This document shows positions 1-32,168 of a stretch of 34,382 nucleotides of DNA, one piece after another. Position numbers and translations under genes: made by a program. This stretch comes from Bifidobacterium breve (GTDB lineage Bacteria > Bacteroidota > Bacteroidia > Flavobacteriales > Flavobacteriaceae), in assembly GCA_943326765.2 (NCBI GenBank), contig CALPUN020000004.1, positions 1 to 34,382 of the forward strand, given 5' to 3'. The notes under the pieces are model-generated. The model saw only the letters and a program-made list of their open reading frames with translations. It had not been told where the DNA came from and made no database searches. Each line of letters begins with the position of its first letter. The stretch's first letter is position 1.

Positions 1-3
1 AGT

Positions 4-24
4 ATCAATTGTTAATTATCAATT
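4..24. repeat. Heptamer tandem repeat upstream of purE
   Basis: Three adjacent 7-base units, ATCAATT, GTTAATT and ATCAATT, end four bases before the purE start codon. The period of seven is shared with the CAACCRA and ATCAACM repeats elsewhere in the window, which suggests one class of short repeat. The window edge hides how far it extends to the left. Confidence 0.6.
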
Positions 25-27
25 AAA

Positions 28-12915: not shown

Positions 12916-13512
12916 TTACTTCAACAATTCAACTTCAGCATTCGGATTAAAGAGATACATTCTACCGGAACTCACCTCCTCGCATTCGTAGCGTTTGGTT
13001 CGCAAAGCACCTTTGGTAAAAATCTTTCCGTTGTGAATTCTAAAGTGACTTCCGTAAGGGAGCTCAAAGATATAATTTTTATCATTCTGTTGGTCAAACT
13101 GTTTTAAGGCTAGGGACAAGGTTGCATCAACATCACTACTCGCGGTTGGGTTTTTGAAATGCCTAGCCAGCAAAGGAAGCAATTGATTGGGGAAAATCTC
13201 AGGCCTAATAAATGGAACCATTAAGTGTTGAAACGTATATTTCCATTCGGTACCATGCGGTTTGATAGTGCGACCAAATTTTTCAAAGGCAACCAAATGA
13301 GAAATCTCGTGAATCAAAGTAATTAGAAATTTGTATTTGTTCAAATTAGCATTCACCGTTATTTCGTGCTTGCCATTTAATGCTTTCCGATAATCGCCAT
13401 GCCGAGTCACTCGTTCGTTCACGATTTTCAAATGCACTTCATTCACCACTATCAATTCAAAGACTGGCTTTACAGCATGTTCGGGTAAATATTTGACTAG
13501 AGTGTCGCTCAT
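12916..13512 (-). CDS. SprT-like zinc metalloprotein
   Basis: The 198-residue product has the SprT-like zinc-binding core: HEISH (residues 68-72) and a third ligand His86 in KPHGTEW. The family includes bacterial SprT and the protease domain of eukaryotic Spartan; the role of the bacterial members is poorly known. I chose the ATG at 13512 (MSDTLVKYLPEHAV). The frame is open further to an ATG at 13554, but those 14 codons are mainly CAACCGA heptamer repeat and would encode NRQPTTDNST, so the shorter start is more believable. It lies between the SDR and manC genes on the same strand. Confidence 0.8.
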   Translation of the reverse strand: MSDTLVKYLPEHAVKPVFELIVVNEVHLKIVNERVTRHGDYRKALNGKHEITVNANLNKYKFLITLIHEISHLVAFEKFGRTIKPHGTEWKYTFQHLMVPFIRPEIFPNQLLPLLARHFKNPTASSDVDATLSLALKQFDQQNDKNYIFELPYGSHFRIHNGKIFTKGALRTKRYECEEVSSGRMYLFNPNAEVELLK

Positions 13513-13519
13513 TGTGGAG

Positions 13520-13543
13520 TTGTCAGTTGTCGGTTGTCGGTTG
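13520..13543. repeat. CAACCGA heptamer repeat upstream of SprT-like gene
   Basis: Read on the minus strand, the run is CAACCGA, CAACCGA, CAACTGA and CAA: three units of seven bases plus a partial one. The same unit occurs inside pdhC at 30853-30880 and 31428-31460. It ends eight bases before the chosen SprT-like start codon. Confidence 0.8.
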
Positions 13544-13549
13544 AAATCC

Positions 13550-13570
13550 ATCAACCATCAACAAGCAACA
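13550..13570. repeat. ATCAACM heptamer repeat between SDR and SprT-like genes
   Basis: On the plus strand three 7-base units follow each other: ATCAACC, ATCAACA and AGCAACA. Together with 13520-13543, heptamer repeats occupy 45 of the 61 bases between these two genes. The two arrays have opposite strand polarity. Confidence 0.65.
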
Positions 13571-13573
13571 TAA

Positions 13574-14251
13574 TTAAGGGGTTGTAGCAGAAACCTGCAA
13601 GACTTTTCCATTGTAAAATTGATGGCCCGTAAGGGTAAAATTAAAGATATAATCTGCCATTTGAGCGGCTGTCAGCGGCGCTTGGTATCCTGGAAACGCT
13701 TCTGCCAACATTTCTGTTTGAACGGATCCTAAGGCCAAAACATTGAAAGCAATTCCTTGTTCTTTGTATTCTTCGGCCAATAATTCCGACAAGGTAATTA
13801 CGGCTCCTTTACTGGAACTGTAAGCAGACAGTCCGGCAAACTTAACGCTGCCTTGAATGCCTCCCATGGAGCTGATGCTCACCACATGACTTCCTTTTTT
13901 CAAATACGGCAAGGCCATTCTGGTTAAGCTAGCAATGGCAAAAACATTGACTTTATAAATGCGTTCAAAATCGGCTGTAGTGGTTTCTGCAAACGGACTC
14001 AACAATAACGCTCCGGCATTGTGAACGATAGCATCAACCATTTTCCATGTTGCCGAAAGGAACTTTTCTACCTCCAACAAATCAAGTTCCAGAGACAAGT
14101 CTACCGACAAGCAACTGATGTTTGGATGTTCCATCAAAGCTTTGGGCGTTTTTCTGGAAAGCGCTAAAACTTGGTGTCCGGCGTTGGCCAATTGCAAAGC
14201 CAATTCATAGCCAATTCCACGAGATGTTCCTGTGACAATGATATTTTTCAA
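13574..14251 (-). CDS. Short-chain dehydrogenase/reductase (TTG start)
   Basis: The 225-residue product is a classical SDR with the NAD(P) loop TGTSRGIG (7-14), NAG at 78-80, and a catalytic Ser128, Tyr144 and Lys148 (YSSSK). SRK near residue 32 suggests NADP. The start is a TTG at 14251: the conserved N-terminus MKNIIVTG begins there and no in-frame ATG lies between it and the loop or just upstream. TTG starts are less efficient, so expression may be low. The substrate is unknown. It shares strand with the SprT-like gene and manC and may be cotranscribed with them. Confidence 0.88.
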   Translation of the reverse strand: MKNIIVTGTSRGIGYELALQLANAGHQVLALSRKTPKALMEHPNISCLSVDLSLELDLLEVEKFLSATWKMVDAIVHNAGALLLSPFAETTTADFERIYKVNVFAIASLTRMALPYLKKGSHVVSISSMGGIQGSVKFAGLSAYSSSKGAVITLSELLAEEYKEQGIAFNVLALGSVQTEMLAEAFPGYQAPLTAAQMADYIFNFTLTGHQFYNGKVLQVSATTP

Positions 14252-23771: not shown

Positions 23772-26700
23772 ATGAAAAATATTTTCCTATTCTTTATTTT
23801 CCTATTTACTAGTATTTCTTTTGGGCAACAAAAGGGTGACATTATTATTGCATGGAGCCCAAAATCTGCGGTCATTATTGGAGAAACCAAAATGATTGTC
23901 CCTCAGTTTAAGCCCGCCAATTTTCAGTTTGACAGTTACAACAAACAATTACTTTTTACTTCAAAAATTGCTACTTCAGGCGAAGTTGATGAGAAATCGC
24001 TTATCATTTCAAATGTTGTCTACGAAACGATTGCCCCTTCCGAATTAGGAGAGTTAGATCCAAAATCAATCCCAACGGCTGTTCAAGCTTCGGCCAAAAA
24101 CAAAAAAGCTCGGGAGATTAGCAGCACCATTCTTTCTATTTCACCGATTATTAAAGACGGTTCCGATTATAAAAAAATAATTTCCTTCTCCTACACTTTA
24201 GCTGCTCAAAGAAACCGAACAACTGCAACAAACTCCGAATTCAATCAAATTTCAAATTCCGTTTTAGCCTCAGGAGAATGGTATCGCTTTTATGTGGTTT
24301 CGTCAGGGGTTTACATTTTGAATAAAAGTTTTTTCATCCAACTCGGCATCAACGCGAATGTTGTCGACCCTAGAAAAATTAAGATTTATGGCAACGGAGG
24401 GCGAATGATTCCGCTTAAAAATAGCGACTATTATCCTGCCGATTTAAAAGAAAATGCGATTCAAGTCATTGGCGAAAGTGATGGTGTTTTTAACGATCCA
24501 GATTATGCATTGTTTTATGCCGAAGGTGTTGACCAATGGAGCGCAGAAAGCCAAACAAATAACAATCTTTACGATTCCAAATCCTACTACTATATTAACG
24601 TTCAAGGAGAAGACGGAAAACGCATTCAAACTATTGCGGAACCAACCGGCGCAAGCACCATTAGCATTCCTACTTTTGACGATACCCAATACCACGAAGT
24701 AGACAATGTGAATATCGTACGTCTGGGCAGACGTTGGTTCGGGGAAGAATTTGACGGATCCAACGAACAGGATTTCAATTTTAACATTCCAAACATAGAC
24801 ACTTCGGTTCCTGTCAATTTAAAAATATACACCGCTGCCATTTCCTATATAGGCACCACTTTTACAGCTAAAGCTAACGGCCAAGCAGCCGGATCCTTAG
24901 CAATCCCAGCTATTGGAGGTTCTAGGAAAGCAGAATGGAAAGAATTAAGCACACCAATTCCCGCTTCTGAAAATATAAAAATTTCCCTAAGCTATAACAA
25001 CAATGGGGTTCCGGATGCTAAAGGGTATTTGGATTATATTAGACTCAAATCGAAGCGATTCCTAAAAGGCTATGGAAGACAATTCCCATTTCAATATGAA
25101 GCCGCAAGCACGGGAACTGGTATTGGAGAATATCAGTTTACCAATGCCGCTTCTATTCAACAAATTTGGGACATTACTGATTTATTCAATGTTACTAAGA
25201 TTGAAAATCCGAATCAAAACACGTTCTCTTTCAAAGCCAATTTAGGAGAAGTGAGAAAGTACGTGGCGGTTTCTGGAAACAATTATTACGTTCCTCTTCA
25301 AGATGCTCAAAGTAGAGTCTTCAATCAAAATTTAAAAGGCACTATTTTTAACAATAGTCAAGGTCAATTTGAAGATATTGATTATTTGATTGTAACGCCA
25401 AATAGTTTAGCTGCCCAAGCCGAAAAATTGGCTAATTTTCACCGGCAGTATTCCAATTTAAATGTAAAAGTCGTCTCCTTAGAGCAAATCTATAAAGAGT
25501 TCTGTTCTGGAAAACAAGATATTGGCGCCATTCGAAATTTTGTCAAATACGTCTATTTCAATGCTTCATCCCCAGACCGAAAAGTAAAATACTTGAATCT
25601 TTTTGGCGATGCCTCCTACGATTTTAAAAATCGAATTAGCAATAACAGCAACGTGGTCCCTATTTACCACGCTCTAAACAGCTATACCGTAGACCCCAGC
25701 TCTTTTGCCACCGATGATTATTTCGGACTAATGGATGACAACGAAGGGAATGTCGATTTATCGCAAGAAGGGCTTGACATTGCTGTTGGCAGAATGATTG
25801 CAAACAATGTCGTTCAAGCGGACCAACTCGTTAACAAAGTCATTGATTACTACGACATCAAATCTTACGGAAATTGGCGTAACAATTTAGTTCTAGTAGC
25901 CGACGATGCAGATGTGAGCGGCGATCGCACCTTGCAATCCAGCATTAACAATATGACCGATGTCATTGTGGCGCAAAAACCCTTTATGAATTTCAAAAAA
26001 ATTCTTTTGGATTCCTATGTTCAAGAAACTTCTGCCGGAGGAAATCGGTATCCTAAAGCTCGAAAAGACATCTTCGAAGCCTTTGAAAAAGGAGCTTTAG
26101 TTTTTAACTATTTAGGCCATGGTGGTGAAGATGGTTTGTCGCAGGAACGTGTTTGGGAAAAATCAGATGGTCAAAATTTAAGAAATCGCTATAAATATCC
26201 TTTGTTTATTACCATTACCTGCGAATTTTCTAGATTCGACAATCCCTACCGGCCAACAGCTGGAGAATACACTTATTGGAATCCTAGCGGCGGTGCCATT
26301 TCTATGATTACTACTGTTCGAGAAATCTTTCAATCCACCGGACAAGATTTCAATGATACCTTAGCAAAATATTTATTTTCGTATGGTTCAAATGAATATA
26401 CTTCTATAGCGGATGCTTTACGATTGGCAAAAAATGATTTTGCTCCGCGAACTGACGTAGTGTTTTATTTGGGCGACCCTGCTTTGATTTTAGCCATCCC
26501 GAAACCAAAAATTAATTTAACTAAAGTCAACGATGTACCTATAACTGGAGCTATTGACGATTTCAAATCTTTAGCCTATGTGAAATTATCGGGGGAGGTA
26601 ACGGATGAAAACAACAATCCACTTCCTGCCTACAATGGCGAATTGGCTGTTCAGGTTTTTGATAAAAATATTATTCGAACCACATTAAACAATGACAACA

Positions 26701-27587
26701 ATAGCCCCCCTATTAATTTTAGCATATTAGGAGAAACGATCTTTAGAGGCAATGCCACCATTAAAAACGGACAATTTGATTTCGGGTTTGTGGTTCCTAG
26801 AGACATTACCATTGCTCCCGGAAATGGTCGTATCAGTTTTTATAGCAAACGCGGCCAAATTCTTTTTGACAAAACGGGTTACAACAACACCATTCGTGTG
26901 GGCGGCATCAACTTAAATGCTGCAGCAGATAATATTGCACCGAAAGTAAGGCTTTTTATGAATGATCAAAATTTCATTTCGGGTGGCATTACCAATTCTT
27001 CCCCAATATTTTTAGCGTATTTGGAAGATGAAAACGGAATCAATACGGCCAGCGGTATCGGACATGATATTGTGGCTATTTTAGATGGTGATGAAAATAA
27101 TCCCTACAAACTCAACGATTGTTACGAGACGGAACTTGACAATTACAAAAAAGGGAACGTAAAATATCTGTTCCGAAACTTAAGCAAAGGATTGCACACC
27201 ATTACCTTCAAAGCTTGGGATGTTTATAATAATTTGGTAACTGCCGACATTCAGTTTCTAGTGTTAGGAGATGAGTCCGTTCAAATTACCAATGTCCTAA
27301 ACTATCCAAACCCTTTTGTGAATTATACTCAATTTTGGTTTTCCCATAACAAACCTTTCGAACCGCTAGAAGTTCAGGTTCAAGTATTAACCATTACCGG
27401 GAAGTTGGTTTGGACAAAAAATCAAATTATTACTACCGATGGTTTCTTGTCTAGAGAAATTTCTTGGGATGGTAAAGATGATTTCGGGGATAAAATTGGA
27501 AAAGGAGTCTATGTATACAAGCTCACCGTCAAGTCGGTTTTAACGAATACCAAAACAGAAAAATACGAGAAACTTGTAATCCTTTAA
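23772..27587 (+). CDS. porU: Type IX secretion system sortase PorU
   Basis: PorU is the outer-membrane-associated C25 family protease that cleaves the C-terminal domain from type IX secretion substrates and attaches them to the cell surface. The 1271-residue product starts with a signal peptide (MKNIFLFFIFLFTSISFGQQ). The gingipain-like catalytic pair is visible: His783 in YLGHGGEDGLS and Cys817 in TITCEFSRF. At the C-terminus (about 1175-1271) is a sorting-domain-like segment: LNYPNPFVNYTQF, then WDGKDDFGDKIGKGVYVYKL, ending in KYEKLVIL. PorU keeps this domain uncleaved. porV follows directly, with its own promoter inside the porU end. Confidence 0.95.
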   Translation: MKNIFLFFIFLFTSISFGQQKGDIIIAWSPKSAVIIGETKMIVPQFKPANFQFDSYNKQLLFTSKIATSGEVDEKSLIISNVVYETIAPSELGELDPKSIPTAVQASAKNKKAREISSTILSISPIIKDGSDYKKIISFSYTLAAQRNRTTATNSEFNQISNSVLASGEWYRFYVVSSGVYILNKSFFIQLGINANVVDPRKIKIYGNGGRMIPLKNSDYYPADLKENAIQVIGESDGVFNDPDYALFYAEGVDQWSAESQTNNNLYDSKSYYYINVQGEDGKRIQTIAEPTGASTISIPTFDDTQYHEVDNVNIVRLGRRWFGEEFDGSNEQDFNFNIPNIDTSVPVNLKIYTAAISYIGTTFTAKANGQAAGSLAIPAIGGSRKAEWKELSTPIPASENIKISLSYNNNGVPDAKGYLDYIRLKSKRFLKGYGRQFPFQYEAASTGTGIGEYQFTNAASIQQIWDITDLFNVTKIENPNQNTFSFKANLGEVRKYVAVSGNNYYVPLQDAQSRVFNQNLKGTIFNNSQGQFEDIDYLIVTPNSLAAQAEKLANFHRQYSNLNVKVVSLEQIYKEFCSGKQDIGAIRNFVKYVYFNASSPDRKVKYLNLFGDASYDFKNRISNNSNVVPIYHALNSYTVDPSSFATDDYFGLMDDNEGNVDLSQEGLDIAVGRMIANNVVQADQLVNKVIDYYDIKSYGNWRNNLVLVADDADVSGDRTLQSSINNMTDVIVAQKPFMNFKKILLDSYVQETSAGGNRYPKARKDIFEAFEKGALVFNYLGHGGEDGLSQERVWEKSDGQNLRNRYKYPLFITITCEFSRFDNPYRPTAGEYTYWNPSGGAISMITTVREIFQSTGQDFNDTLAKYLFSYGSNEYTSIADALRLAKNDFAPRTDVVFYLGDPALILAIPKPKINLTKVNDVPITGAIDDFKSLAYVKLSGEVTDENNNPLPAYNGELAVQVFDKNIIRTTLNNDNNSPPINFSILGETIFRGNATIKNGQFDFGFVVPRDITIAPGNGRISFYSKRGQILFDKTGYNNTIRVGGINLNAAADNIAPKVRLFMNDQNFISGGITNSSPIFLAYLEDENGINTASGIGHDIVAILDGDENNPYKLNDCYETELDNYKKGNVKYLFRNLSKGLHTITFKAWDVYNNLVTADIQFLVLGDESVQITNVLNYPNPFVNYTQFWFSHNKPFEPLEVQVQVLTITGKLVWTKNQIITTDGFLSREISWDGKDDFGDKIGKGVYVYKLTVKSVLTNTKTEKYEKLVIL

Positions 27588-30521: not shown

Positions 30522-32168
30522 ATGGCAAAAATTATCACGATGCCACGCTTGAGTGATACTATGACCGAAGGAGTTGTAGCGAAATGGCTTAAGAAAGTGG
30601 GCGATAAAATTAGCGAAGGAGATATCTTAGCTGAAATTGAAACCGACAAAGCAACGATGGAATTTGAATCATTCAATTCCGGAACGCTTTTGCATATCGG
30701 AATTCATGAAGGCGAAACCGCTCCCGTTGATGCGCTCTTAGCCATCATTGGTGCCGAAGGAGAAGACATTACTCCACTATTGAATGCTGCTAAACAAGCT
30801 GCTACAACTTCAGCTCCAGTAGAAGAAGATGAAAAAGCTGAAGGCACACCATCAACCGACAACCAACAACCGACAACCACTTTACCAAAAGGGGTCGTTG
30901 TGGTGACCATGCCGCGCTTAAGCGATACCATGACCGACGGTACTGTAGCGACTTGGTTGAAAAAAATTGGAGATACAATAGCCGAAGGAGATATATTAGC
31001 CGAAATCGAAACCGATAAAGCTACCATGGAATTTGAATCTTTCAACGCTGGAACTTTATTGTTCATCGGCGTTAACGAAGGCGAAACCGCACCTGTCGAT
31101 AGCGTACTTGCCATTATTGGACCTGCAGGTACTGACATTACAGGCATCGCAGAAAATTATAAAAAAGGTGGTGCCTCAGCAGCAGCTGTATCCCCGAGCA
31201 CAGTTGAAGGGCACAAACCAACAGAAACCACAACAGAAGAAACGATTCAAGTAGTTTCTGACGGAAGAAGAATCTTTATATCGCCATTGGCAAAAAAAAT
31301 AGCGGAAGAAAAAGGCATTAATATCGCTCAGGTAAATGGGTCAGGTGAAAACGGACGTATCGTCAAAAGCGATATCGAAAATTATACGCCCTCGTCGCAA
31401 GGGGTCACCTCGGACGTAGCCGAGGGGCAACCGACAACCAACAACCAACAACCGACAACTGTAAAACCATTTGTTCCTGCTGGAGAAACCTTTACCGAGG
31501 AAATCAAAAATTCGCAAATGCGCAAAATCATTGCGAAACGTTTGTCAGAATCTATCTTCACCGCACCACATTTCTATTTGACTATAGAAGTAGCAATGGA
31601 CGAGGCTATGAAATCAAGAGCGACGATTAACACGATTCCAGACACCAAAGTTTCGTTCAACGATATGGTGATCAAAGCCTGTGCAATGGCGTTGAAAAAA
31701 CATCCGAAAGTAAACTCTCAATGGAGAGAAGACGCTATCATCATTAACCATCATGTCAATGTGGGAGTTGCTGTAGCTGTTGAAGACGGATTGGTAGTAC
31801 CCGTTTTACAATTCACCGATCAAATGAGTTTGTCTCAAATTGGCAATAGCGTAAAAGATTTAGCAGGAAGAGCCAAATCGAAAAAATTACAACCTGCAGA
31901 AATGGAAGGTAGTACTTTTACGGTTTCTAATCTGGGTATGTTTGGTATTTCAGAATTCACTTCTATTATCAATCAACCCAATTCCGCGATTTTATCCGTT
32001 GGCGCTATCGAAGAAAAGCCTGTCGTAAGAAACGGACAAATTGTAGTTGGAAATACCATGAAAGTTACTTTAGCTTGCGATCATAGAACTGTAGATGGTG
32101 CTACTGGAGCACAATTCCTTCAAACACTAAGACAGTATTTGGAAAATCCAGTAACAATGTTAGCCTAA
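30522..32168 (+). CDS. pdhC: Pyruvate dehydrogenase E2, dihydrolipoamide acetyltransferase, with two lipoyl domains
   Basis: E2 is the core of the complex and transfers acetyl groups to CoA. Domains in this 548-residue protein: lipoyl 1 (about 1-77, lipoyl Lys43 in ETDKATMEF), linker 1 (78-123), lipoyl 2 (about 124-204, Lys166 in the same motif), linker 2 (205-246), E1/E3-binding domain (about 247-283, IFISPLAKKIAEEKGI), linker 3 (284-322) and catalytic domain (323-548, His521 and Asp525 in DHRTVDG). The lipoyl domains are a tandem duplication offset by 123 residues. Linkers 1 and 3 contain in-frame copies of repeats found between genes elsewhere in the window, giving QQPTT-type runs. A short intergenic space and terminator follow. 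Confidence 0.96.
   Translation: MAKIITMPRLSDTMTEGVVAKWLKKVGDKISEGDILAEIETDKATMEFESFNSGTLLHIGIHEGETAPVDALLAIIGAEGEDITPLLNAAKQAATTSAPVEEDEKAEGTPSTDNQQPTTTLPKGVVVVTMPRLSDTMTDGTVATWLKKIGDTIAEGDILAEIETDKATMEFESFNAGTLLFIGVNEGETAPVDSVLAIIGPAGTDITGIAENYKKGGASAAAVSPSTVEGHKPTETTTEETIQVVSDGRRIFISPLAKKIAEEKGINIAQVNGSGENGRIVKSDIENYTPSSQGVTSDVAEGQPTTNNQQPTTVKPFVPAGETFTEEIKNSQMRKIIAKRLSESIFTAPHFYLTIEVAMDEAMKSRATINTIPDTKVSFNDMVIKACAMALKKHPKVNSQWREDAIIINHHVNVGVAVAVEDGLVVPVLQFTDQMSLSQIGNSVKDLAGRAKSKKLQPAEMEGSTFTVSNLGMFGISEFTSIINQPNSAILSVGAIEEKPVVRNGQIVVGNTMKVTLACDHRTVDGATGAQFLQTLRQYLENPVTMLA
30853..30880. repeat. CAACCRA heptamer repeat inside pdhC linker 1
   Basis: Four exact 7-base units, CAACCGA, CAACCAA, CAACCGA and CAACCAC, encode residues 111-120 of E2, between the two lipoyl domains. 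Reading frame is kept because the flanks absorb the extra base. Confidence 0.85.
31404..31427. repeat. CGAGNGNAGYCGAGG hairpin repeat inside pdhC linker 3
   Basis: The stretch begins GTCACCTCGG and ends CCGAGGGG. CCTCGG (31408-31413) and CCGAGG (31420-31425) are a 6-bp inverted repeat. It aligns with intergenic copies at 32179-32202 and 34251-34274. It encodes VTSDVAEG, residues 295-302, directly joined to the next repeat. Confidence 0.7.
31428..31460. repeat. CAACCRA heptamer repeat inside pdhC linker 3
   Basis: Units CAACCGA, CAACCAA, CAACCAA, CAACCGA and a partial CAACT encode QPTTNNQQPTT, residues 303-313, between the E1/E3-binding and catalytic domains. Confidence 0.85.

Follow-up and report, generated by a model that had tools for sequence, protein, structure and literature searches.

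Some 23S rRNA IVS elements encode the protein IVP/S23p, for which, to our knowledge, no function is known. In the 23S IVS of Coxiella, GACAGAT heptamers are located before the S23p gene, a 28-bp stem is formed and the element is excised by RNase III (PMC4990558). In the literature, heptamer arrays have been interpreted as sites of regulation, as G-quadruplexes or as products of slippage, with no accepted origin, and one of the papers on them states that "no mechanism is evident". The TAACTGA and GGGAATC repeats are patchily distributed across Gammaproteobacteria, Cyanobacteria and Bacteroidota (PMC4679880, PMC4692102). IVS elements, S23p and heptamer repeats are all known already, each on its own.

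Here we analyzed a gap between two protein genes that is occupied by two heptamer arrays. It is part of a stretch of DNA of 34,382 nucleotides, which is called the window throughout. The genome of the window, a 2.4-Mb assembly with a completeness of 92%, was covered by pattern searches and sampled stretches. We consider it likely that the arrays represent the two arms of an IVS-like element that sits between cistrons, belongs to a family with heptad arms and, in this short form, lacks a gene.

Results

Two heptamer arrays of opposite polarity in the SDR-SprT gap

The element sits between the genes of a short-chain dehydrogenase (SDR) and a SprT-like protein, and not within a 23S rRNA gene. The features are as follows, in coordinates of the window:

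3-25, plus strand: TATCAAT array of period 7, just upstream of purE, whose start codon is at 28
12916-13512, minus strand: SprT-like gene (PF10263), downstream cistron, with its ATG at 13510-13512
13513-13573, minus strand: whole intercistronic element of 61 nt, occupying all of the space between the SDR stop and SprT start codons
13519-13543, minus strand: arm 1, CAACCGA CAACCGA CAACTGA CAAC, 3.6 units, reading GTTGNNN on the plus strand
13539-13556, no strand assigned: innermost perfect inverted repeat GGTTGA-AATCCA-TCAACC
13550-13569, plus strand: arm 2, ATCAACC ATCAACA AGCAAC, polarity opposite to arm 1
13574-14251, minus strand: SDR gene (PF00106), upstream cistron, with its stop codon at 13574-13576

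The preliminary description had reported a gap made up of two heptamer arrays of opposite polarity, which was confirmed, and the length of exactly 61 nt is correct as well. Three CAACYGA units had been claimed for the minus strand, where 3.6 are present; the count of three ATCAACM units on the plus strand was slightly generous, as two are exact and the third is degenerate (AAGCAAC). The period of seven ascribed to the array near the start of the window is also seen, directly before purE. The contig end probably cut a similar element here, so that only one arm is left and any partner arm is lost.

On one strand of the SDR-SprT gap, a loop of about 6 nt separates GTTGNNN units from the CAACNNN units that follow, and together they make up a hairpin. 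Outside the innermost repeat GTTG pairs with CAAC every 7 nt, with mismatches in between. The fold is predicted to have an MFE of about -16 kcal/mol (-16.2) with a z of -2.75 to -3.1, so the window copy has complementary termini that are able to form a stem (z -2.75). The motif CAACNNNCAAC has 13 matches in the window compared to 1.0 expected, and none of 100 shuffles reached this number; for CAACNNNCAACNNNCAAC with up to two mismatches, there are 18 matches in the window compared to 2.9 expected. The window copy contains neither an IVP gene nor a visible IVP remnant. A search of Rfam at gathering score returned nothing over 13300-13800 apart from one match at chance level.

Turnover of the gap within the genus

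The SDR-SprT neighbourhood is conserved in the genus and therefore the gap is directly comparable between species. Among 76 resolved gaps of genus genomes, 29 are empty (about 4-35 nt), 17 hold an insert of about 400 nt with an IVP gene between (AATTATG)n and (CATAATT)n arrays, and three contain GTTG/CAAC short forms (G000, G103, G127); the remaining occupied gaps contain other heptamer arrays or other repeats. The window short form may or may not derive directly from the IVP element found at this gap in related species: its heptamer unit is a different one, and no trace of IVP is seen in it. The same gap is occupied in some species and vacant in others, and one genome (G004) represents an internally deleted intermediate, in which the first and last IVP codons are retained between the arms. 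The IVPs at the SDR-SprT gap form one clade and are under purifying selection, with a median dN/dS of 0.07. In G011 the gap is empty, and an IVP that belongs to this clade and is flanked by the same arms is located between two unrelated genes elsewhere, which places the same type of element at another gap. The relatives are diverged (about 72%), so that insertion junction and target-site duplication are not definable, and no transposase was tied to the element.

Some short arrays at this position (AAATTCC and TTTTAAC) form no stem. In G113 and G054 (L166, L173) the gap holds TAGCCCCCTAGCCCCCAAAAGGGGG, in which a unit of 8 nt precedes an inverted arm; this may be the same design with a period of 8. 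A different repeat, TTGTCAGGCTGAGCGGAGTCGAAGCC, was observed in the gap of four species (G074, G083, G116, G122; loci L216, L174, L208, L215), indicating that the SDR-SprT gap collects several repeat families.

These data bear on the possibility that the hairpin was selected for the host operon, acting in mRNA stability, SprT translation or attenuation, with no mobile element involved. The hairpin adjoins the SprT start codon, and a significant predicted fold is found at the same gap in all three genomes with GTTG/CAAC short forms. However, 29 species have an empty gap, and at least 29 changes of its contents are counted on an SDR+SprT tree, which is weakly resolved and was used only to show turnover. 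The same design also recurs between unrelated genes, and the stem is not followed by a U run and hence is not a standard intrinsic terminator. We therefore regard a regulatory or processing hairpin of the host as unlikely.

A family of heptamer elements in the genome of the window

Tandem degenerate heptamers are present at many intergenic loci of this genome. The motif CAACNNNCAACNNNCAAC, corresponding to CAAC(N3CAAC)2, has 81 matches in the assembly, which bears out the earlier expectation of a genome-wide family as opposed to a few loci only. The arrangement of GTTG followed by CAAC (GTTGNNNGTTGN{4,34}CAACNNNCAAC) is matched 23 times at nine distinct loci, and was also detected in three of 12 relatives of the same genus and in one genome of another family. 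The pattern read backwards, that is with reverse polarity, gave no match in all 21 genomes searched, and with 23 matches versus none the opposite polarity is the defining feature of the element, which the preliminary description had not recognized, nor had it noted that the long form encloses an IVP gene. With a slightly wider spacing, 12 bipolar GTTG/CAAC loci were identified in the genome, and all 12 are located between co-directional genes and abut their ends. Among the 21 genomes, that of the window has the highest number of GTTG/CAAC matches.

In an unbiased 354-kb sample of the same genome, period 7 and its multiple 14 were the commonest intergenic tandem periods, with units such as ATTTAGG, TTCTGAT, ATTATCA and others, two clearly bipolar. 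The units are therefore not restricted to CAAYNN, as had been supposed, and what the loci have in common is the period and the polarity; as a shared consensus, GTTG/CAAC is only one of several units in the genome. The short elements have predicted folds with z of -3 to -7.6. Several centres of the short GTTG/CAAC elements look palindromic, and no shared core was seen by eye when they were inspected for a conserved loop sequence.

Arrays with a single arm occur as well, some of them inside genes, and two are present in the pyruvate dehydrogenase (PDH) E2 gene of the window:

30848-30879, plus strand: CAAC heptamer array in the first inter-lipoyl linker, STDNQQPTT
31428-31459, plus strand: CAAC heptamer array in the linker before the catalytic domain, QPTTNNQQPTT

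Relatives have other linkers here, which are Ala/Glu-rich. Intragenic CAAC arrays always have CAAC in sense and encode QPTTNNQQ-like peptides; besides the two PDH E2 linkers they were observed in LeuRS, MetH, PurL and a second E2 (L056, L050, L045, L064). A large protein of peptidase family C25 (gingipain-type) is encoded at 23772-27587 of the window.

IVP genes between complementary heptamer arms

The long form of the element consists of two mutually complementary heptamer arrays with an IVP/S23p gene (PF05635) between them, and is located in sense between co-directional genes. It is found in the genome of the window on contig C77, where the gene for an IVP with homology to PDB 2GSC (E 1.3e-21) lies between an 81-nt GTTGTCG array and a 25-nt CAACCGA array, both with the units of the window element. 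The transcript is predicted to close by a 31-bp stem round the whole gene (z -5.3). Two other loci, L153 on contig C124 and L154 on contig C221, share the same IVP neighbourhood and downstream gene and have different arm units (CAACTGA vs CAACATA). This pair is either a duplication or stems from two strains in the assembly, and its arms change faster than its genes.

To describe IVP genes in general, we analyzed the 110-nt flanks of 69 of them (PF05635) from 17 genomes of the order. Autocorrelation of the flanks at period 7 reached z of 23 on the left and 19 on the right side, and other periods were near 0 except for the multiple 14 and a weak signal at 8. Comparison of the left arm with the reverse complement of the right arm gave 24.9 for the own and 13.1 for swapped partners (p 6e-36); in this analysis, 19 of the 69 loci fell outside the top 5% for arm complementarity. 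In a separate comparison with 251 control genes from the genome of the window, 51 of the 69 loci scored above the 99th percentile. The arms often comprise about 4.4-5 units. Of 66 IVP genes, 65 lie between two co-directional neighbours and share their orientation, compared to a baseline of 55% (p 7e-16). In orthologous IVP loci, arms of one locus pair better with each other than with arms of another species in some groups only, so that co-evolution of the arms is at most a tentative reading. IVP is also found directly before nadD and after another gene, an order as in gmk-IVP-nadD of F. columnare (PMC5524665), which suggests Flavobacterium as the genus. Several IVP genes are spaced about 1.6 kb apart within one region (G179:C14:220758-226839, G151:C6:181421-184952 and G163:C11:492107-498082), which looks like repeated invasions of a single operon.

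The same architecture was detected at 26 IVP loci in other genera and orders of Bacteroidota and at 16 IVP loci on cyanobacterial plasmids, where the arms are STRR-type heptamers (GGGAGTA, GGAACAG, AGTCAGA and others) in inverted orientation; some of the cyanobacterial copies are antisense to their neighbours. The likening of the window arrays to cyanobacterial STRR heptamers was apt. In contrast, the idea that Bacteroidota have a counterpart with a separate mechanism was not supported, and the heptamers of both phyla look like one phenomenon because cyanobacterial IVP genes have arms of the same design. Three of the cyanobacterial plasmid elements (L230, L231, L233) are located between CRISPR genes (cas6/cas4, cmr2/cmr3).

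Plain polymerase slippage, an explanation attributed to Mrazek (2007), would let heptamer arrays arise anywhere because 7 nt is a favourable length for the polymerase; their hairpins and their vicinity to IVP would then be a coincidence. Heptanucleotide repeats are indeed the commonest long class of simple repeats in many genomes (PMC4679880, PMC4692102), arrays with a single arm exist, and slippage plausibly alters copy number. However, it predicts neither the strict polarity nor the complementarity of the arms, nor the enrichment at IVP genes, 39% of which have a period-7 value of at least 0.75 in a flank compared to 2.8% of control genes. It also does not predict the absence from IVP-free genomes: in sampled stretches, a strong period-7 segment was found in 0 of 233 gaps from IVP-free and 17 of 462 gaps from IVP-bearing genomes, a comparison that is confounded by phylogeny. 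The 17 comprise 12 of 325 from IVP-rich genomes and five of 137 from the genome of the window, and the matches are clustered in few genomes. Slippage is improbable as an explanation and, as the sole cause, is already disfavoured.

A REP- or MITE-like DNA element, that is a hairpin moved by a RAYT or IS200/IS605 transposase, would account for a short intergenic palindrome with many copies and for the empty gap in relatives. We consider this very unlikely, and it is already weakened by the result that the Y1 transposase domain (PF01797) has no match in the genome of the window (92% complete); furthermore, no conserved core sequence is present, and heptad arrays and an association with IVP are not REP features. 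Copying through RNA by a host reverse transcriptase is very improbable: IVP, which would act like the Avd of diversity-generating retroelements, does resemble Avd (PMC10053308) and a sense orientation in operons would fit an RNA intermediate, but RVT_1 (PF00078) has no match in the genome of the window or in seven other IVP-bearing genomes (G001, G003, G008, G012, G013, G014, G018), some of these assemblies being incomplete.

Discussion

For the IVS-like elements with heptad arms, a mechanism can be proposed. The element would be co-transcribed with its operon, and the arms may fold in vivo into a long RNA stem, which would be a substrate for RNase III, as has been shown for rRNA IVS. The cut would be tolerated by the cistrons, with no need for rejoining. 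Such a tolerance in cistron gaps, as at rRNA IVS sites, would fit the result that nearly all IVP genes of Bacteroidota lie between cistrons and in sense. The IVP itself probably binds the arms or the stem and helps the element to persist or spread. Short forms like that of the window could be remnants, or dependents of an IVP supplied elsewhere in the genome.

By analogy to TRAP, which reads spaced triplets, one may speculate that the period of 7 is the register of an RNA wound round a pentameric IVP ring with one heptamer per subunit. We think that this is rather doubtful. If true, a ring protein would set the repeat length whatever the sequence, which would explain why arms of differing sequence, often of about 4.4-5 units, share the period, and cyanobacterial STRRs and Bacteroidota heptamers would be footprints of one ancient element class.

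We found no paper linking heptamer arrays to IVP in the open-licence literature, and priority elsewhere is possible. The tie between the two offers an origin for the heptamers of cyanobacteria, Xanthomonas, Beggiatoaceae and Bacteroidota, and joins two unexplained observations into a single system open to experiment, in which operon gaps harbour an IVS-like element whose protein is conserved and whose arms keep a fixed period. IVP genes are then the place to search, and RNase III cuts and the binding of IVP to heptamers are the quantities to measure.

Several known systems resemble parts of this design. Like REP/BIME and MITE, the short forms are intergenic palindromes with many copies; unlike these, they have no conserved tetranucleotide head and no sequence core, and no HuH transposase was found in the genome of the window. 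Diversity-generating retroelements differ by their reverse transcriptase, for which this genome has no PF00078 match. The P6b stem of the Nostoc tRNA-Leu intron is also built from complementary 7-nt repeats with a repeatedly replaced unit (PMC4476775), but it is part of a group I intron and without an IVP gene. Judged by their descriptions, the TAACTGA repeats of Beggiatoaceae (PMC4679880) and the GGGAATC repeats of Xanthomonas and Nostoc (PMC4692102) are comparable intergenic heptamers, mostly between or beside genes, for which translational or G-quadruplex roles were proposed and no link to IVP was made. The cyanobacterial STRRs are degenerate tandem heptamers in gene gaps as well; they were reported as direct repeats to which no gene belongs, whereas here the arrays are paired arms of an element.

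The 23S rRNA IVS of Coxiella, Leptospira and others likewise carry an IVP gene inside terminal inverted repeats, whose stem is close to 30 bp long (Coxiella 28 bp, contig C77 a predicted 31 bp), and the heptamer repeats just before the IVP gene are a further likeness to Coxiella (PMC4990558). In contrast to the 23S rRNA IVS, the elements described here are located in gaps between protein genes, both of their arms are heptamer arrays and the window copy is gene-less. The novelty lies in IVS-like elements whose arms are heptad arrays and whose sites are gaps between protein genes; the window provides a gene-less example.
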